DNA of 64,000 bases from Deltaproteobacteria bacterium GWC2_55_46 (GTDB lineage: Bacteria > Desulfobacterota > GWC2-55-46), in contig LVEI03000001.1 of NCBI GenBank assembly GCA_001595385.3, forward strand, positions 1,269,501 through 1,333,500, given 5' to 3'. A program made the translations under genes and the position numbers. This document shows, in pieces, positions 1 through 9,360 of this stretch. The notes beneath the pieces were generated by a model. It was not told the origin of the DNA and did no database searches. It saw only the letters and a list, made by a program, of their open reading frames with translations. The stretch's first letter is position 1. The number at the start of each line of letters is the position of its first letter.

Positions 1-1220
1 ACGGTCCAGTCGATGAGCTTTAAGAGCACAAAGGTAGCCACGAACGCGTATCCGACGCTCGCGCCTACGGCTATCAGCTGCTTTACGAGGAGAGTCCCGC
101 CGTAGAAGAGCCCGTCGGCGCCCGCGGAGTTTATAGCGGTGGATGCGAAAAGTCCGGTCGCTATAGCGCCCCAGATGCCGCCTACGCCGTGTATGCCGAA
201 GGCGTCGAGCGAGTCGTCATAGCCAAGGAGCGGCTTTATGTATGTTACCGCTATATAGCAGATAACGCCTGCAGCCGCTCCGAGGAATATGGACGGCATC
301 GGCCCGACAAAACCCGCGGCAGGCGTTATCGCCACCAGCCCGGCTACAATCCCTGAGGCAAGGCCAAGGAGCGTCGGCTTGCCCCTGTGAAGCCACTCAG
401 CCGCCATCCAGGCCAGCGCCGCGGCGGCGGCAGCGGTGTTTGTCACCAGGAATGCCGAGGCCGCAAGGCCGTTCGCCCCGAGGGCGCTCCCGGCGTTGAA
501 GCCGAACCACCCGAACCAGAGAAGCCCTGCACCGATCAAGGTGAGCGGCAGGTTGTGCGGCATCATAAGCTCTGTCTTGTACCCCTTCCTCTTCCCCATC
601 GCAAGCGCGGCAGCCAGGGCCGCGACACCGGAGCTTATGTGGACGACTGTTCCGCCAGCGAAGTCGAGGGCGCCGAGAGCGCGGAGCCATCCGCCAACGC
701 CCCATACCCAGTGGGCGAGCGGGTCGTAGACCAGGGTTGTCCACAGGAGGGTGAATATGATGAAGGCCGAGAACTTCATCCTCTCGGCAAAGGCGCCGGC
801 GATGAGCGCAGGCGTTATTACCGCGAACATCATCTGGAATATCATGAAGGCCTGGTGCGGTATGGTCGCTGCGTAGTCGGTGTTCGGATCAGCGCCTACA
901 CCTGCGAGGCCGGCCCAGTCGAGCGAGCCTATGAGCCCGCCGATATCGGGGCCGAAGGCGAGGCTATAGCCCCAGAGCACCCACTGTATGCTTATGATGC
1001 AAAGGACCGCGAAGGACTGCATTATGGTACCGAGCACGTTTTTTCTCCTCACCATGCCGGAGTAGAAAAGGGCGAGGCCCGGCGCGGTCATAAGGAGCAC
1101 GAACGCGGTGGAGATGAGCACCCATGAGGTATCCCCCGTGTCAATTGGCGGCGGCCCGTCGGCCAGGGCCGTAAGCGGCATTAAAAAGAGCATTACAAGA
1201 GCCCAGATCATCGTCTTCAT
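1..1220 (-). CDS. amt: Ammonium transporter Amt (first copy, C-terminus cut by window edge)
   Basis: Inner-membrane ammonium channel of the Amt/MEP/Rh family. About 406 codons are open from the ATG at 1218-1220 to the window edge; the C-terminus lies outside. A signal-like N-terminus ends in LTALADG. Family landmarks seen: the entry motif [14 protein letters not shown], the first pore histidine in [25 protein letters not shown], and the second pore histidine in [11 protein letters not shown]. It starts 27 bases after glnK ends, behind an AGGAGGAAG ribosome site, so it should be co-transcribed with glnK, whose product blocks Amt channels. It is clearly homologous to the second amt at 1704-2987 but diverged, so this is an old duplication or separate acquisition. 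Confidence 0.95.
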
Positions 1221-1247: not shown

Positions 1248-1692
<445 letters not shown>

Positions 1693-1703
1693 TTTAATTG
1701 ATT

Positions 1704-2987
1704 TTAGAAGTTGTAGCCGCTCTCTTCGTGCTGAGTGAGATCAAGCCCCTGTATCTCCTCCTCGTTCGATACCCTGAGGCCCACGACGAGGTCGACCACC
1801 TTTAGTATGACCAGCGTCCCCACGACCGAGACAAGGACCGTTACGCCCGCGCCGATAACCTGGCTCATGAGGAGCGCCGGGTTCCCGTGGATAAGCCCTG
1901 TTGCGCCGACCGAGGCGAGAAGGCCTGTTGCCAGAGTCCCCCATGTGCCTGCAACGCCGTGGATGCCGAAGACGTCGAGGGTGTCGTCATACTTGAGCCT
2001 GATCTTCATGATAGTCACGGCTATGTAGCAGAGGCCCGCCGCGACTACCCCTATCAGAATAGCCGCCTGGGGCGTTACGAAACCGGCTGCCGGAGTTATC
2101 GAACCAAGCCCGGCGACCGTACCCGACATGGCCCCAAGCATCGTGGGCTTGCCCCTGTGCGCCCATTCTATGAAAGCCCAGACGAGCGTGCCTACCGCCG
2201 CGGCGGTATTCGTGGTGACGAAAGCGTTTACCGCCACTCCGTCTGCCGCGAGGGCGCTCCCGGCGTTGAAGCCGAACCAGCCGAACCAGAGTATGCCCAT
2301 GCCTATGACAGTAAGCGTCAGGTTATGCGGCGGCATCAGCTCCCTCGGCCAACCCTTACGTCTGCCGACATATATCGCGGCAACGAGGGCGGAGATGCCG
2401 GAGCTCATGTGGACTACCATGCCGCCCGCGAAGTCAAGGACGCCGAGCGACTGAAGCCACCCCCCGCCCCAGACCCAGTGGGCGAGCGGGTCGTATACAA
2501 GAAACGCCCAGAGGATGCTAAAGAGGACTACCGCCGAGAACTTGATCCTCTCCGCCACGGCCCCTGTTATGAGCGCGACCGTTATGGCCGCGAACATGCC
2601 CTGGAAGACCATGAAGAGGAGGTGCGGTATCGTCCCCTTCGGCTCTATGCCTACGCCAGACAGGGCCGTAAAGTCAAGTCCGCCTATGAACCCGCCAGTA
2701 TCCGGGCCGAAAGAGAGCGTATATCCCAGGAGGACCCATTGGACGGTTATGAGGCAGAGTATGAAGAAGCTCTGCATGATGGTCGAGAGCACGTTCTTCT
2801 TTCTCGCCATGCCGGCGTAGAATATCGCGAGCCCCGGTATCATGAACATTACCATAGCCGTTGAGACCATCAGCCAGGCGGTGTCCGCCTTGTCTATCTC
2901 AGCGGCATCCGCCGCAAGAGAGCTCCCCTCAAACCCCAGGAACGCCAGAAAAAGCGCCCCCGCGTACAGAAACGTCCTCATAAACAT
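1704..2987 (-). CDS. amt: Ammonium transporter Amt (second, complete copy)
   Basis: Complete 427-residue Amt channel. Residues 1-26 form a signal-like segment ending SSLAADAAE; about eleven membrane helices follow. Pore residues are present: [27 protein letters not shown] (first pore His), [15 protein letters not shown] and FGIHGVAGTWG (second pore His). The hydrophilic tail EEEIQGLDLTQHEESGYNF is typical of bacterial Amt. A strong AGGAGG site lies just before the ATG. The gene sits between the outer-membrane protein gene (92 bases upstream) and glnK, and its 3' end is followed by the glnK terminator/antiterminator leader. Two Amt proteins in one operon may differ in affinity or in sensing; the sequence does not say which. 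Confidence 0.96.
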   Translation of the reverse strand: MFMRTFLYAGALFLAFLGFEGSSLAADAAEIDKADTAWLMVSTAMVMFMIPGLAIFYAGMARKKNVLSTIMQSFFILCLITVQWVLLGYTLSFGPDTGGFIGGLDFTALSGVGIEPKGTIPHLLFMVFQGMFAAITVALITGAVAERIKFSAVVLFSILWAFLVYDPLAHWVWGGGWLQSLGVLDFAGGMVVHMSSGISALVAAIYVGRRKGWPRELMPPHNLTLTVIGMGILWFGWFGFNAGSALAADGVAVNAFVTTNTAAAVGTLVWAFIEWAHRGKPTMLGAMSGTVAGLGSITPAAGFVTPQAAILIGVVAAGLCYIAVTIMKIRLKYDDTLDVFGIHGVAGTWGTLATGLLASVGATGLIHGNPALLMSQVIGAGVTVLVSVVGTLVILKVVDLVVGLRVSNEEEIQGLDLTQHEESGYNF

Positions 2988-3079: not shown

Positions 3080-3811
3080 CTACTTATTGAAGACGTCGAA
3101 GTCTATGTCCACCTGCACGGTGACAGAGTCCTGGAACGCGCTGTCGTTCTGGTCGACGTAGGCGAAGATGACGCTGGTGTTCGGCGCGAACTTCCAGGAG
3201 AAGCCGTAGGAGAGAGCGCCAAACGAGCTATCGCCGCTCATGTAGTCGACGCAAAGCCACAGGTTCTCGGATATCTCGCTCATGACCCTTTCCCACGCGA
3301 GCATAACGCCCTGTTCATCCGCCTCGCCGTTCCCGTTGAGCAGGACCTCGTCGTTGCCGGTATAGGCCCCGGCAGATACCCTGCCGAAGTTGCCTAAGGT
3401 CTTCGCCGCCTTCGCGTAGATTATGTTCTGGTCGGTTACGCCTGATTTCGTGCCGAAGCCGTACCCGCCAACTGCAAGCGCGGGGAAGAACTCGCCGAAG
3501 GCCCCCTCCGGTATGCCGGCCTTGGCGTTAAAGAAGAGGGGATTGTTGCCCTCGATGTGGTCGAATCCGACCTCAAGGCCAAGCTTTTCCGTTGGAAGTA
3601 TCCCTGTAGTGAGCCCCAGGTTCGTGATAGTCGGAGTGTCGTTGCCATTCGTTGCCACATAGATATCGCTTGTCAGGTGGAATACCCCGTAGGCCTGCAC
3701 ATCTGTCGAAGGCGCCCAGATGTGCGTTGAAGGTGTAGCGAGGGCCCCTCCAGCGCTCAGCAGCACAGCTGCCGCTGCCGCGTAAAAACCTTTGATAAGT
3801 TGCTTTTTCAT
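3080..3811 (-). CDS. Predicted outer-membrane beta-barrel protein at head of the amt operon
   Basis: About 243 residues with a clear signal peptide (MKKQLIKGFY, hydrophobic core, cleavage near GGALATP) followed by alternating, aromatic-rich strands such as LSYGFSWKFAPNTSVIFAYV, which fits a small outer-membrane barrel. I cannot name the family. An upstream in-frame Met at 3865 exists, but the Met at 3811 is preferred because it starts the signal peptide and follows a GGAGGG ribosome site. It is the first gene after the sigma-54 promoter and hexaloop leader, and amt follows 92 bases later. The context suggests a role in taking up a nitrogen compound across the outer membrane; that is inference. 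Confidence 0.8.
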   Translation of the reverse strand: MKKQLIKGFYAAAAAVLLSAGGALATPSTHIWAPSTDVQAYGVFHLTSDIYVATNGNDTPTITNLGLTTGILPTEKLGLEVGFDHIEGNNPLFFNAKAGIPEGAFGEFFPALAVGGYGFGTKSGVTDQNIIYAKAAKTLGNFGRVSAGAYTGNDEVLLNGNGEADEQGVMLAWERVMSEISENLWLCVDYMSGDSSFGALSYGFSWKFAPNTSVIFAYVDQNDSAFQDSVTVQVDIDFDVFNK

Positions 3812-3872
3812 AGCTTTTTTTCCCTCCTGCTTTTTATGAAGTTTCTCTGGAACGCTTCTTTTCACCAGGGGG

Positions 3873-3901
3873 AATAAGGCGCCCCCTTGCGGATAGGCGC
3901 C
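3873..3901 (-). terminator. Terminator-like hairpin in the operon leader
   Basis: Minus-strand arms GGCGCC (3901-3896) and GGCGCC (3883-3878) pair, followed by TTATTCCCC, a weak T-tract. The 5' arm overlaps the second hexaloop hairpin (3894-3909), the same arrangement as in the glnK leader. The poor T-tract makes it a weaker terminator call. Confidence 0.5.
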
Positions 3902-3945
3902 ATTGCCTACAGTTTTTTTGGATTTACGGCTACGTCGTTGTAACC
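3894..3945 (-). promoter_or_regulatory. Candidate ANTAR-binding dual-hexaloop antiterminator (operon leader)
   Basis: On the minus strand, GGTTAC-(AACGAC)-GTAGCC (3945-3928, one G-T wobble) and TAGGC-(AATGGC)-GCCTA (3909-3894) are separated by an A-rich 18-base linker. Both loops are six bases with A1 and G4. The second hairpin overlaps the terminator 5' arm. The first hairpin would begin about 14 bases after the transcription start expected from the sigma-54 promoter at 3969-3984. Confidence 0.7.
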
Positions 3946-3968
3946 ACCTGAATAGTTATCTTGAATTA

Positions 3969-3984
3969 AGCAACTTCGGTGCCA
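3969..3984 (-). promoter_or_regulatory. Sigma-54 (RpoN) promoter of the outer-membrane protein-amt-glnK-amt operon
   Basis: The minus strand reads TGGCAC-C-GAAG-TTGCT. Against the consensus TGGCACG-N4-TTGC, only one non-core base differs, and the -24 GG and -12 GC have the correct spacing. Transcription would start near 3959. Sigma-54 promoters need an enhancer-binding activator, such as NtrC, and are typical of nitrogen genes. I could not make out a clear NtrC site upstream. Confidence 0.75.
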
Positions 3985-4071
3985 AAGCCGAGGCGCCCTG
4001 AATTCCTTGCTTTTTATCGATTTGCGGCCGGTCCTGAACCCGCCCCTGCAAAAACAATAATCACCGCTGCC

Positions 4072-4779
4072 CTATTTTTCAGCCATTCTCAGGAACCTCG
4101 CCACAAACGGGCTTGCCAGCCTGTGGAGCCCCTCGATATTCTCCGGGACCTTCTTGAGTATCTCTTGAGGGTCTATCTTGCCTTTAAGTCCGGAGAGCTC
4201 TTCGCCGTTGACGCCTATCCAGTCCCTTATCATCTCTTCTGTGACCTCGAGATGGAACTGGACGCCATAGGCCGCGGGGCCGACCTTTATGACCTGGTTC
4301 GGGAAAAACTCTGATGACGCGAGCCTTACCGCCCCAGGGGGCACGTCGAAGGTGTCGCCATGCCACTGGAAGACCGTGAACTCTTCAGGGAAGCCGATAA
4401 AGAGCCTGTCGCCTATCCCTTCATCTTCGAGGGCGACCTTGTACCAGCCTATCTCCTTCGCCTTGCCCTTGTAAACATCAGCGCCAGCCGCCTTTGCCAG
4501 AAGCTGAGAGCCCAGGCAGATGCCGAGGGTCGGCACCCTCTCCTTCAAGGCAGACTCGATGAGCCGCAGCTCGTCTTTTATGAACGGATATTTGTCTTCC
4601 TCGTAGACCCCCATCGGCCCGCCCATCACGATGAGCGCGTCATACCCGTCTATCCTTGAAGGCAGGACCGCCCCTTTGAACATATCGAAGTACTCGACCA
4701 TGAAGTCCTTCTCAAGGGGCCTTTTTATCGTCCCAAGCCCTTCATGCCTGACATGTCTTATTACAAGCGCTCTCGGCAT
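4072..4779 (-). CDS. Class-I glutamine amidotransferase (GuaA-like domain protein)
   Basis: 235 residues forming one class-I glutamine amidotransferase domain, which releases ammonia from glutamine or acts on gamma-glutamyl bonds. The catalytic triad is visible: nucleophile Cys in LGICLGSQLLA, and the His/Glu pair in YGVQFHLEVTEEM; FQWHGDTFDVPPGA is also typical. There is no synthetase domain, so it is not a full GMP synthase; such stand-alone proteins have varied or unknown substrates. It starts six bases after the ANTAR regulator gene, so the two should be co-transcribed, and the nitrogen operon follows in the same direction. The link to glutamine metabolism is suggestive only. Confidence 0.85.
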   Translation of the reverse strand: MPRALVIRHVRHEGLGTIKRPLEKDFMVEYFDMFKGAVLPSRIDGYDALIVMGGPMGVYEEDKYPFIKDELRLIESALKERVPTLGICLGSQLLAKAAGADVYKGKAKEIGWYKVALEDEGIGDRLFIGFPEEFTVFQWHGDTFDVPPGAVRLASSEFFPNQVIKVGPAAYGVQFHLEVTEEMIRDWIGVNGEELSGLKGKIDPQEILKKVPENIEGLHRLASPFVARFLRMAEK

Positions 4780-4785
4780 AGTCTT

Positions 4786-5361
4786 TTACCTTCCCTTTTC
4801 AAGGGCCATTATAAGCACTTCGGCTATCTCAGACATGCTCTTTCTCTTGTCCATGCTTATCTTTCTTATCCTCGCGAAGGCCTCGCTTTCGCTCAAGCCT
4901 TCCTTCTCCATGAGAAGACCCTTCGCCTTCTCCACGACCTTTCTGGTCTCAAGCGTCTTTTTGAGGTCTTCGTTCTCCCTGCGAAGGGCCTGAAACTCCC
5001 TGAACCTTGATATGGCAAGCTCTACCGCAGGGATGAGCTCCTCGGCCCTCAGAGGCTTCATGAGGTATGCCATGACCCCGGCCTCTGCCGCCCTCCTTAC
5101 GGTCTCCTCGTCGTCGCTCCCCGTAAGGAGGACGATGGGCTTGGGGAAGCTGTGGCTTATTTCGAAAGCTGCCTCTATGCCGTCCTTAACAGGCATCTTG
5201 ACGTCCATTATAATGAGGTCCGGGTCCTTAAGCCTGCATATCTCAAGGGCTTCCATGCCGTTTGTGCCCTCCGCGACGATCGCGAAGCCGGCATCCTCTA
5301 TAAAACCCCTGAGGATAAGTCTCTCTGTGTCGTTATCATCTATGATGGCTATCTTTTTCAT
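4786..5361 (-). CDS. Response regulator with RNA-binding ANTAR output domain
   Basis: About 191 residues. An N-terminal receiver domain (MKKIAIIDDND, phospho-acceptor Asp in LIIMDVKMPVKDG, switch Thr in LLTGSDDE, Lys in YLMKPLR) joins through a coiled linker (REFQALRRENEDLKKTLETR) to a C-terminal ANTAR domain (KVVEKAKGLLMEKEGLSESE and on to the end). ANTAR proteins bind paired hexaloop RNA stems and prevent termination; examples are NasR, EutV and Geobacter GnfR, the last of which controls nitrogen genes. Two such RNA elements sit just downstream in the amt operon, so this is the likely regulator. The cognate histidine kinase is not next to it. An in-frame Met ten residues upstream (5391) is possible; neither start has a strong ribosome site. 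Confidence 0.93.
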   Translation of the reverse strand: MKKIAIIDDNDTERLILRGFIEDAGFAIVAEGTNGMEALEICRLKDPDLIIMDVKMPVKDGIEAAFEISHSFPKPIVLLTGSDDEETVRRAAEAGVMAYLMKPLRAEELIPAVELAISRFREFQALRRENEDLKKTLETRKVVEKAKGLLMEKEGLSESEAFARIRKISMDKRKSMSEIAEVLIMALEKGR

Positions 5362-5477
5362 GCCTGAGGTAGAAAGCAAATTAGATGCCATCAGGTTTTT
5401 TATTGATCTAACAGGTCTTTATGGACAGTCGGTTGGATGAGGCGCGGGAAAAGTGGACGTTTTTGAGGCTAAAGTGA

Positions 5478-6932
5478 TTAAGATTTGTGCAACCTGGCCT
5501 TGGCAGCCATGTAGACCTCGATGTACCTGCTGGCGGCGTCATCCCATGAAAAATTCTCTTTCATACCCTTCTCTTGTAGCCCTTTCCACGCCTTCTTGTT
5601 GCCGAAGAGCTTTAGCGCCTCGGCTACCTTTTGAACGAGCGCAGGAGCCGAATACTCCTTGAATTTAAAGCCTGTCCCGTTGCCTTCGGAATAATCCGTT
5701 ACGGTATCGTCAAGTCCGCCTGTTGCGCGCACGACCGGCACGGTGCCGTACTTGAGGCTATATATCTGGTTCAACCCGCATGGCTCGTACCTCGAAGGCA
5801 TGAGGAAGATATCGGCCCCGGCCTCAACCAGGTGAGAGAGGTGGCCGTTGAAGGCGACCTTCACCGAAAGCTTCTCGGGGTAAGACCTGGCCAGGCCGGC
5901 AAGGAGGTCCTGGTATCTCCTGTCGCCTGAGCCGAGGATGACCAGCGCGAGATCCATCTTCATAAGCTCTGGCATCGCCTCGGCGAGTATATCTATGCCC
6001 TTCTGGTCGGCAAGCCTGGTTATCATGCCTATAAGAGGCGTCCTGGCCTTGACCTTAAGACCGAAATCCTTCAGGAGCTTTTTTCTGCAGGCCGATTTGC
6101 CCTTGAGGTCTTCTGTCGAATAGTTCTCCGGTATGGCGGTGTCTGTCGCCGGGTCCCATTCCGTATAATCGACCCCGTTCAGTATGCCGAAGAGGTCATC
6201 CTTGCGTTTGCTCAATACCCCTTCGAGGCCGTAGCCGTACTCAGGGGTCTGTATCTCAAGGCTGTAGCCTTTGCTTACGGTCGTTATAGCCTCAGAGAAG
6301 ACTATACCGGCCTTAAGGAGGCTAAGGTTGCCCCAGAACTCGAGCCCCTCCGGGTTCAGCATGTAATATCCGAGGCCGGTAATGTCGTAAAGATTGGCGG
6401 GGAACTGCCCCTGATAGGCTATATTATGGACGGTAAAGACAGTCGCTGTTTTCGAAAAAGCGGGGTCGCCCCTGTAGATGTCATTGAGATACGCGGGTAT
6501 GAGGCCTGTCTGCCAGTCGTTGCAGTGGATGATGTCGGGCTTGAGATCAAGCGCCTTTATTACCTCAAGGACGGCCCTTGAGAAGAAGGCGTACCTTTCG
6601 AGGTTGTCGAAGTAATCCCCTTCAGGGGTGCCATAGAGGTACGACCTGTCGAAGAACTCATCCCTTTTTATGAAGTGGACGCTCACGCCCTGATGGTCGG
6701 CAAGGAGGACCTCGGCGTTTATTATCCTCCTTCCCATGTTGACGGGCACTTCGAGGGTCTTTTCGACCTCAAGGTGTTTGCCTGCAATCTCCCTGTAATA
6801 TGGCATGAAAAGGTGGACCTCGCAGCCCATCTGCTTCAATGCGGCCGGGAGAGACCCGCTTACGTCCGCAAGGCCGCCGGTCTTGGCAAACGGCGCGGCC
6901 TCAGGGGCCGCTATGACAACGTTAAGCGCCAT
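5478..6932 (-). CDS. glgA: Glycogen synthase (ADP-glucose type, GT5)
   Basis: 484 residues, normal length for bacterial GlgA, which transfers glucose from ADP-glucose to alpha-1,4-glucan. The N-terminal ADP-glucose-binding motif KTGGLADVSGSLP is present at residues 17-29, VFTVHNIAYQGQFP lies in the GT5 domain, and the C-terminal GT1-like domain has LMPSRYEPCGLNQIYSLKYG with the conserved Glu, then RATGGLDDTV. It is on the same strand as the ANTAR regulator 116 bases downstream, but the functional link is unclear. No other glycogen gene is in the window. Confidence 0.95.
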   Translation of the reverse strand: MALNVVIAAPEAAPFAKTGGLADVSGSLPAALKQMGCEVHLFMPYYREIAGKHLEVEKTLEVPVNMGRRIINAEVLLADHQGVSVHFIKRDEFFDRSYLYGTPEGDYFDNLERYAFFSRAVLEVIKALDLKPDIIHCNDWQTGLIPAYLNDIYRGDPAFSKTATVFTVHNIAYQGQFPANLYDITGLGYYMLNPEGLEFWGNLSLLKAGIVFSEAITTVSKGYSLEIQTPEYGYGLEGVLSKRKDDLFGILNGVDYTEWDPATDTAIPENYSTEDLKGKSACRKKLLKDFGLKVKARTPLIGMITRLADQKGIDILAEAMPELMKMDLALVILGSGDRRYQDLLAGLARSYPEKLSVKVAFNGHLSHLVEAGADIFLMPSRYEPCGLNQIYSLKYGTVPVVRATGGLDDTVTDYSEGNGTGFKFKEYSAPALVQKVAEALKLFGNKKAWKGLQEKGMKENFSWDDAASRYIEVYMAAKARLHKS

Positions 6933-7087
6933 AAGAAGAAAACTTAGCAGAAAAATGAAAGGGTTTCAAGTGGCGGTTGAAATAAAACACATGCGCCGAA
7001 CTCATTCGCCGACAGAGATCTTCTTCCCATTGCCACTCCCCTGCCCTTTGTGTTAATTTGAATGAGTATAAAAATCGATGCTTCTTT

Positions 7088-7170
7088 CCCCTCTTTTTAA
7101 AAGAGGGGCATGGGGAGATTATTCTGGAATTCGACCATAATCCCCCGTAGCCCCTTATAGAAAAGAGGGC
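7088..7170. repeat. Short palindromic intergenic repeat, family 2
   Basis: Contains the inverted repeat CCCCTCTTTT-T-AAAAGAGGGG (7088-7108), then GGGGAGATTATT and AATCCCCC tracts and a partly repeated second palindrome (7157-7170) running up to uvrD. Similar G/C-run hairpins with GGGGATTATT-like tails occur at 28101-28140 and, more degenerate, near 22020-22060. They look like copies of a small dispersed intergenic repeat. Confidence 0.45.
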
Positions 7171-7182
7171 TACAATAACACG

Positions 7183-9360
7183 ATGCCATATCTAAGATCC
7201 TTAAACCCTACACAGGCCGAGGCCGTCACCTTCGGCGACGGGCCGCTTTTGATCCTTGCCGGGGCCGGAAGCGGCAAGACCCGCGTCCTTACCTCCAGGA
7301 TAGCCTATCTTGTCCTCAATAAAGGGATAGTGCCTGAGGGCGTACTGGCCGTGACCTTCACCAACAAGGCCGCCGGTGAGATGAGGGAGCGGCTCTACCG
7401 CACGATAGGCGAGAACGCGAAATCGGTCTGGCTCGGCACATTCCATTCGCTGGGCTTGAGGCTCCTCAGGAGGGAATCGAGGGCAAGCGGCCTTAAGGGT
7501 GATCTTACCGTCTACAGCGACGACGACCAGCTCGCCCTCATAAAGCAGGTCTTGAGCGAACTCAACCTCAATGAAAAGGTCCTCCCCCCGAAGGCGGTGC
7601 TCGCCCGCATAAACCAGGCCAAGAACGACAATATCGGCCCGGCCGAGTATACCGCCCGCGTGAACGATTTCTTCTCGGAGCGCGTATCAAAGGTCTACAA
7701 CCTCTACCAGAAGAAGCTCCGCGAGATGGGCTGCCTCGACTTCGGCGACCTCATCTGCGAACCCATAAACCTCCTTCGCCAGCACCAGCGCATACTGGAC
7801 TCCTATAGAGAGCAGTTCCAGTACATACTCGTCGACGAGTACCAGGACACGAACAAGGCCCAGTACATGCTCACCGGCCTCCTGGCAGGCGGCTCCCGGA
7901 ACCTGCTGGCCGTCGGCGACCCCGACCAGTCGATATACGCATGGCGCGGCGCGGACATCTCCAACATCCTCGATTTCGAGAAGGACTACCCCGACGCCAC
8001 GGTACTGCGCCTTGAGCAGAACTACCGCTCGACGAGGAACATACTTTCTGCCGCCAACTCGGTGATAGAACGGAACTCGCGTCGCATGGAAAAGACCCTG
8101 TGGACCGAGAACATGGAAGGCCACCCGCTCGTCCATGAGCAGGCAAGGGACGAGTACGACGAGGGGCGCAAGGTCCTCTCACGCCTCAAGGCCCGCATGG
8201 ACGACGACAGGACGCTTGCCTACAGGGACTGCGCCGTATTCTACAGGACCAACGCCCAGTCCAGGGTATTTGAAGAACTTTTCATACGCGAAGGCGTGCC
8301 TTATACGATAGTCGGCGGCACCAGGTTCTACGACAGGATGGAGATAAAGGACGCCCTCGCCTACTTAAGGATCATATCGAACCCCAACGACTCGATAAGC
8401 CTCCAGAGGATAATCAACAGGCCCGCCAGGGGCATCGGGAAGGCAACGCTCGACAAGGTCCTGTCTATAAGCAAGGAGATGAGCATCCCGCTGCTGGAGG
8501 CGTTGAGAGAAGCCCAGGACAGGGGGCGGCTCGCCAAGACAAAGACGCGCCAGTTTCTCGAAGCGTACGACAGTTTCAATGTCGACATGGAAAAACTCAC
8601 CCTCCACGAACTTTGTCTGAGGCTCCTCGAGGACTCCGGCTACATGATGATGTGGCAGGAGGAGGCTACCGACGAGGCGGCTGAAAGGACCGAGAACCTC
8701 TTTGAGCTCGTCTCCGCCATAAAGGACTTCGAGACCGCCAACCCCGGCACGAGCTTATCCGACTTCCTCGACCAGGTAGCGCTCATAAGCGACCTCGACA
8801 ACTACGAGGATAAGGCCGACAGGCTCACCCTCATGACGCTCCACTCGGCCAAGGGGCTTGAGTTCAGGGTGGTCTTCCTCGCCGGCATGGAAGAGGGCAT
8901 ATTCCCGCACTCAAGGAGCTCTGACGACCCTGAGCAGATGGAAGAGGAGAGGCGCCTCTGTTACGTCGGCATGACAAGGGCAAAGGAAGAGCTCTATCTC
9001 TTCTCCGCCGCCGCAAGGTCGCTTTACGGAGAGACGAGGTACCAGGCCCGCTCAAGGTTCATCGACGAAATATCCTCAGGCCATATCAAGTTTTTAAACC
9101 AGGAGAGCTCTCCCGCCAGGGGCGTCTTTACCGCCCCCGTGGAGGAGTACTGCTCCCCTGAGGACGACCTCCCCTGCCACACCGGAGAAGAGACCCTCGC
9201 GTGGAGGGTCGGCATGAAGGTATCTCACCCGAGCTTCGGGGTCGGCATCATAAAGGAGCGGAGCGGGGCCGGGGCTGATGTAAAGGTCACCGTCAACTTC
9301 AAGAACTCCGGCATTAAAAAGCTCGCCGTAAAGTACGCAAACCTAACCCCACAATCCTGA
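7183..9360 (+). CDS. pcrA: ATP-dependent DNA helicase UvrD/PcrA
   Basis: Superfamily 1A 3'-5' helicase of 725 residues. Motifs in order: Q motif LNPTQAEAV (residues 7-15), Walker A LAGAGSGKTRVL (near 24-35), Walker B VDEYQDTN, motif III GDPDQSIYAWRGA, motif IV LEQNYRST, motif V MTLHSAKGLEF and motif VI CYVGMTRAKEEL. The C-terminus (WRVGMKVSHPSFGVGIIKER) is the Tudor-like RNA-polymerase-binding fold of PcrA/UvrD. It acts in nucleotide-excision and mismatch repair and in removing stalled polymerase. UvrC is encoded elsewhere in the window. It stands alone between the divergent glgA and the galU operon. Confidence 0.95.
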   Translation: MPYLRSLNPTQAEAVTFGDGPLLILAGAGSGKTRVLTSRIAYLVLNKGIVPEGVLAVTFTNKAAGEMRERLYRTIGENAKSVWLGTFHSLGLRLLRRESRASGLKGDLTVYSDDDQLALIKQVLSELNLNEKVLPPKAVLARINQAKNDNIGPAEYTARVNDFFSERVSKVYNLYQKKLREMGCLDFGDLICEPINLLRQHQRILDSYREQFQYILVDEYQDTNKAQYMLTGLLAGGSRNLLAVGDPDQSIYAWRGADISNILDFEKDYPDATVLRLEQNYRSTRNILSAANSVIERNSRRMEKTLWTENMEGHPLVHEQARDEYDEGRKVLSRLKARMDDDRTLAYRDCAVFYRTNAQSRVFEELFIREGVPYTIVGGTRFYDRMEIKDALAYLRIISNPNDSISLQRIINRPARGIGKATLDKVLSISKEMSIPLLEALREAQDRGRLAKTKTRQFLEAYDSFNVDMEKLTLHELCLRLLEDSGYMMMWQEEATDEAAERTENLFELVSAIKDFETANPGTSLSDFLDQVALISDLDNYEDKADRLTLMTLHSAKGLEFRVVFLAGMEEGIFPHSRSSDDPEQMEEERRLCYVGMTRAKEELYLFSAAARSLYGETRYQARSRFIDEISSGHIKFLNQESSPARGVFTAPVEEYCSPEDDLPCHTGEETLAWRVGMKVSHPSFGVGIIKERSGAGADVKVTVNFKNSGIKKLAVKYANLTPQS

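Follow-up and report, generated by a model that had tools for sequence, protein, structure and literature searches.

A sigma-54 promoter and an ANTAR-type leader predicted to act together at an ammonium transport operon of an uncultured deltaproteobacterium

In Geobacter sulfurreducens, as Ueki and Lovley are said to have described in 2010, the GnfK/GnfM to GnfL/GnfR cascade reportedly uses a sigma-54 activator to drive an ANTAR regulator together with target genes that carry a terminator in their leaders. The locus described in this work is alike in this arrangement and unlike in its targets, which in the gnf system are reportedly nif genes, and in that GnfR is said to come with a kinase. We know of no leaderless regulator mRNA and anti-Shine-Dalgarno element in the gnf system.

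Ntr control combined with antitermination has been described for nas operons, and in Klebsiella the pairing of Ntr (sigma-54) control with ANTAR antitermination is established (PMC5424462). Klebsiella oxytoca nasF resembles the present case in its control by NtrA, NtrB and NtrC, joined to ANTAR antitermination in the leader, and in its two-hairpin A1/G4 motif (PMC5424462, PMC7496416); it differs in that NasR is a one-component nitrate sensor and the target is nitrate assimilation, whereas here there are a response regulator, an amidotransferase-like neighbour and an ammonium transport operon. A cascade proposed for Paracoccus comprises NtrC, antitermination by NasT and a level of translation (PMC5424462). 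The NasS-NasT systems of Paracoccus denitrificans and Azotobacter have in common with this locus an ANTAR protein with a leader attenuator (that of nas), a regulator gene controlled by NtrC and the proposed third, translational level (PMC5424462), but they act on other targets, and here no NasS gene lies beside the ANTAR gene.

Recognition of dual hexaloops is published (PMC3369931, PMC8934654, PMC7496416). Ramesh et al. 2012 predict ANTAR leaders upstream of genes for P-II and ammonium transporters, i.e. the same RNA motif and the same class of target genes as here, while a sigma-54 box, an ANTAR feed-forward and a link to an outer-membrane protein go unmentioned in the passages considered here (PMC3369931). 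In actinobacteria translation control is also tied to ANTAR RNAs, but it is the hexaloop hairpins that cover the ribosome binding site in those RNAs, a role which in the present leader would fall to a separate C-run downstream of the terminator (PMC8164766). Sixty-six sigma-54 promoters have been predicted upstream of genes of the ANTAR group, most of them in beta- and gamma-proteobacteria (PMC12316311).

The stretch of DNA analysed here as a whole, termed the window, comprises 64,000 nt of contig LVEI03000001.1 of Deltaproteobacteria bacterium GWC2_55_46. The source organism is an uncultured groundwater bacterium. Since the nas operons of Klebsiella and Paracoccus and the gnf system of Geobacter share the principle of stacked control, the present case is a variant of something already known, and the analysis suggests that what is new in this control of ammonium uptake lies in a regulator mRNA with almost no leader and in a possible third gate, at translation. 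The locus would add ammonium transport to the processes under double control by sigma-54 and ANTAR, beside nitrate assimilation and nitrogen fixation, and would do so in a lineage known here mostly through metagenome genomes. Its testable additions are a leaderless sigma-54 mRNA whose promoter-to-AUG spacing is nearly fixed, a possible fail-safe at translation behind the attenuator, and a widespread unnamed outer-membrane protein (OMP), predicted to have 12 strands, which is tied to Amt and GlnK.

Promoter and leader of the ammonium transport operon

Table 1. Features of the locus, in positions of the window and in order of transcription.
Feature	Position	Strand	Remarks
Sigma-54 box TGGCAT-CTAAT-TTGC before ANTAR gene	5376..5390	-	Conserved in 22 distinct sequences
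ANTAR response regulator	4786..5361	-	Receiver and ANTAR domains; phospho-site residues intact
Class I glutamine amidotransferase-like protein	4072..4779	-	Cys-His-Glu intact; directly downstream of ANTAR gene
Candidate activator site (UAS) GGCAGCGGTGA	4061..4071	-	Dyad conservation in relatives
Sigma-54 promoter TGGCAC-CGAAG-TTGC	3970..3984	-	Predicted +1 at about 3958; motif scan and conservation
P1 hairpin GGTTAC(AACGAC)GTAGCC	3928..3945	-	Hexaloop A1, G4
P2 hairpin GTAGGC(AATGGC)GCCTAT	3893..3910	-	Hexaloop A1, G4; overlaps 5' arm of terminator
Terminator-like hairpin GGCGCC/GGCGCC	3873..3901	-	Weak tail TTATT; shared with P2
Anti-Shine-Dalgarno C-run TTCCCCCTG	3866..3874	-	Complementary to Shine-Dalgarno sequence (9 bp, one bulge) and to G-run of terminator 3' arm
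Shine-Dalgarno sequence AGGAGGG of OMP gene	3822..3828	-	From sequence
Outer-membrane protein gene	3080..3811	-	N-terminal helix (signal peptide-like) and 12 predicted beta-strands
amt, ammonium transporter 1	1704..2987	-	
Second dual-hexaloop leader, between amt and glnK	1608..1692	-	Good U-tract terminator; no sigma-54 box
glnK (P-II)	1248..1586	-	
amt, ammonium transporter 2	1..1220	-	Extends beyond the window

An earlier note on this DNA had claimed a near-consensus RpoN promoter with an RNA start near 3959, two hexaloops, AACGAC and AATGGC, the second overlapping a terminator-like hairpin, and an operon of the order OMP-amt-glnK-amt. All of this was recovered: the promoter lies on the minus strand with the correct GG/GC spacing, its position predicts a +1 next to the one proposed, both hexaloops have A1 and G4 on the same strand, the gene order is correct, and the 3' half of P2 (GGCGCC, 3901-3896) is at once the 5' arm of the terminator, which pairs with GGCGCC at 3883-3878. 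The distance of about 14 bases which the note gave from the start to the first hexaloop fits the P1 stem (about 13 nt after +1) and not its loop (about 19-20 nt).

The motif scan named there as a check gave two TGGCAYN5TTGC matches in the 64-kb window, where shuffles predict 0.12. In the whole genome, which carries rpoN and about 20 genes for sigma-54 activators, the motif occurs 26 times, compared to four for a reversed-pattern control. A box 5-40 nt upstream of P1 is present in 28 of the 38 related leaders collected, while in shuffled upstream regions dual loops arise in 0.06% and a sigma-54 box in 0.8%. The combination of leader and sigma-54 box is not due to chance.

Genomes of the same genus (L117, L119, L122, L124 and L113) keep the leader with no sigma-54 box before it, so the box is not essential to the design. 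In these relatives the operon seems to be transcribed by read-through from the sigma-54 promoter that precedes the ANTAR gene, and it could be argued that the box at 3984 is unused and that the same happens here, where the ANTAR, amidotransferase and OMP genes are co-directional and no other terminator was called between them on that strand. Against this, the box is a full consensus match placed at a set distance which is conserved in other genera, and most relatives have a GGCA-N4-6-TG dyad 75-97 nt ahead of the -24 box; we regard an unused box as very unlikely, and take initiation at this promoter as the probable first level of control.

A covariance model trained on 14 leaders, among them the OMP leader of the window but not the glnK leader, found exactly two sites in the 2.79-Mb genome. 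Both belong to this operon, the OMP leader scoring 65.4 bits and the glnK leader 42.7 bits. At the gathering thresholds of Rfam the sole match was a tRNA, and no leader family was hit. The covariation score of P1 and P2 together was 0.290 versus 0.115 in shuffled alignments (0/500), nearly all of it from P1, which clearly exceeds both the shuffled and the slid controls. Among the aligned leaders P2 hardly varies, as is expected from its double use as terminator arm.

Overlap of P2 and terminator is present in both leaders of the operon, the hairpins of the glnK leader being CCGGCAC(AAGGCT)GTGCCGG and then AAAGGC(AAAGGC)GCCTTT. The U-tract is strong in the glnK leader and in the relatives and weak in the OMP leader of the window, whose tail TTATTCCC, with 4 U of 8, is the poorest among 21 related leaders; a generic terminator scan left this terminator uncalled (weak tail, loop longer than 8). 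Premature termination ahead of the OMP gene may therefore be weak, and the attenuator may be leaky in the present genome, next to a glnK leader with a good tail. Such a tail, together with the intact U-rich one of the glnK leader, would also fit a decayed attenuator which has lost its U-tract and is read through regardless of ANTAR, leaving sigma-54, perhaps with translation, in sole control of OMP and amt, and ANTAR with a role only at the glnK leader. However, P1 and P2 of the OMP leader are intact with their A1/G4 loops and the high model score given above, the stem is still GC-rich, and terminators with poor tails sometimes function; decay appears improbable compared to an antiterminated leader.

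The ANTAR regulator and the proposed circuit

The second match in the window lies before the ANTAR gene, which has its predicted +1 at about 5364 and its ATG at 5361, i.e. a 5'UTR of about 3 nt. The distance from box to ATG hardly varies: among the 22 distinct sequences the predicted 5'UTR measures 3 nt in 16 and 2-4 nt in 20, and the regulator mRNA is thus predicted to be nearly leaderless. Three ANTAR genes are present in the genome, of which this is the adjacent one. The other two (L002 and L003), one of them a response regulator 44% identical to that of the window, have no further leader in the genome according to the covariance model.

The signal which would activate the ANTAR protein may be phosphorylation or may come from the amidotransferase-like protein, a possible signal partner encoded by the adjoining gene. 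Just past the stop codon of this gene sits the candidate UAS dyad (4071-4061). A search of the window for a kinase gene beside the ANTAR gene found none, and among the adjacent genes there is no NasS gene, the neighbour being the amidotransferase-like gene instead. By analogy to AmiC/AmiR and NasS/NasT, this neighbour could be a glutamine sensor which sets the activity of the ANTAR protein by sequestering it, with no part for a kinase. AmiC sequesters AmiR. The absence of a kinase gene next to the pair in the window, the adjacency of the two genes in most relatives with a leader and the NasS/NasT precedent (PMC3795266, PMC5424462) speak for such a sensor, but the phospho-site residues of the receiver are all invariant and the catalytic triad of the amidotransferase is kept, so that each protein may work in the conventional way. 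We consider sequestration possible but doubtful.

On either signal, we consider it highly probable that the operon has a sigma-54-regulated, ANTAR-antiterminated leader within a coherent feed-forward circuit; since sigma-54 would make both the antiterminator and its target RNA, the circuit would be an AND gate. Nitrogen limitation would lead a sigma-54 activator, for which the candidate is an NtrC-like protein encoded about 8 kb away, to switch on two promoters. The first would give the ANTAR regulator and the amidotransferase from the nearly leaderless mRNA and the second the OMP-amt-glnK-amt(-nirB) RNA, which would probably terminate early at the leader unless activated ANTAR protein kept P1 and P2 folded and blocked the terminator. 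The switch would be repeated before glnK, and a third gate might be added by the C-run, which would hide the Shine-Dalgarno sequence. What the computation itself shows are two sigma-54 boxes and two dual-hexaloop leaders, the conservation of these elements, the P1 covariation and an intact ANTAR gene.

The earlier note had read the locus as two stacked nitrogen controls, initiation by sigma-54 and ANTAR antitermination. This reading is strongly supported by conservation across genera and families and by the covariation of P1. It was incomplete, having missed the ANTAR gene's own sigma-54 promoter, the glnK leader and the possible element sequestering the Shine-Dalgarno sequence, and it is not universal, given the same-genus genomes with a leader and no box.

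The C-run ahead of the outer-membrane protein gene

Complementarity of the C-run to both the Shine-Dalgarno sequence and the G-run was found in all 13 leaders of this type examined. When single leaders were shuffled, the match to the Shine-Dalgarno sequence had P <0.03 in 13 of the 14 such leaders and 0.28 in the remaining one, L123. This match is specific to the leaders across 11 lineages (P = 0.0014 with kinship ignored; linker control, P = 0.59), while that between G-run and anti-Shine-Dalgarno run is not (P = 0.11, also with kinship ignored).

A full thermodynamic switch, with the Shine-Dalgarno sequence open when the leader is bound by ANTAR, gained no support when tested, since constrained folding keeps this sequence closed with either P1/P2 or the terminator enforced. 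Because of this closure in both folded states, and because the G-run match is not leader-specific, release of the Shine-Dalgarno sequence is put forward only as a proposal. The folding models leave co-transcriptional folding and a fixed translational brake as alternatives for how the C-run may act. A leader with three gates would join sigma-54 initiation, ANTAR antitermination and sequestration of the Shine-Dalgarno sequence by a C-run which could also pair with the 3' arm of the terminator, so that RNA read through without ANTAR would stay untranslated, the antiterminator itself coming from a conserved leaderless sigma-54 mRNA; we advance it tentatively. Chances only slightly short of even are given to a fixed hairpin, which would stabilise the mRNA or set a low basal translation without any switching: the pairing in both constrained states and the unspecific G-run match agree with it, while the complementarity of the C-run to two targets in every leader examined does not.

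Downstream genes and occurrence in relatives

The outer-membrane protein has no family match in Pfam or NCBIfam, and its predicted structure shows moderate similarity to 12-stranded barrels. Downstream of the second amt gene, outside the window and on the same strand, lies nirB, and beyond it at the distal end of the operon an NtrB-like/NtrC-like pair (pair and nirB region, L183:3606-6223 and 6925-9324).

The covariance model recovered the leader in 28 of 30 genomes of the family, in 30 of 48 in the order and in 36 of 63 in the class. Metagenome genomes of Deltaproteobacteria make up most of the closest named relatives. Where a relative has the leader, the ANTAR-amidotransferase pair usually lies upstream of it. 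In Geobacteraceae, e.g. Geomonas paludis and Geobacter sp. OR-1, the same type of leader stands ahead of the same OMP family. Among the more distant homologues of the OMP gene, most have neither the leader nor the pair. In the same-genus relatives which keep the leader an OMP homologue is absent; in one of them, L122, the single next gene read after the leader encodes a BBP2-family porin in its place.

Homologues of the outer-membrane protein adjoin Amt and GlnK genes in Geobacteraceae, Nitrospirae, Omnitrophota, Elusimicrobia and other metagenome genomes (L018-L097). In the relative G015 (L125) a weaker dual-hexaloop match of 36.6 bits is located between amt and a reading frame which starts like NirB.
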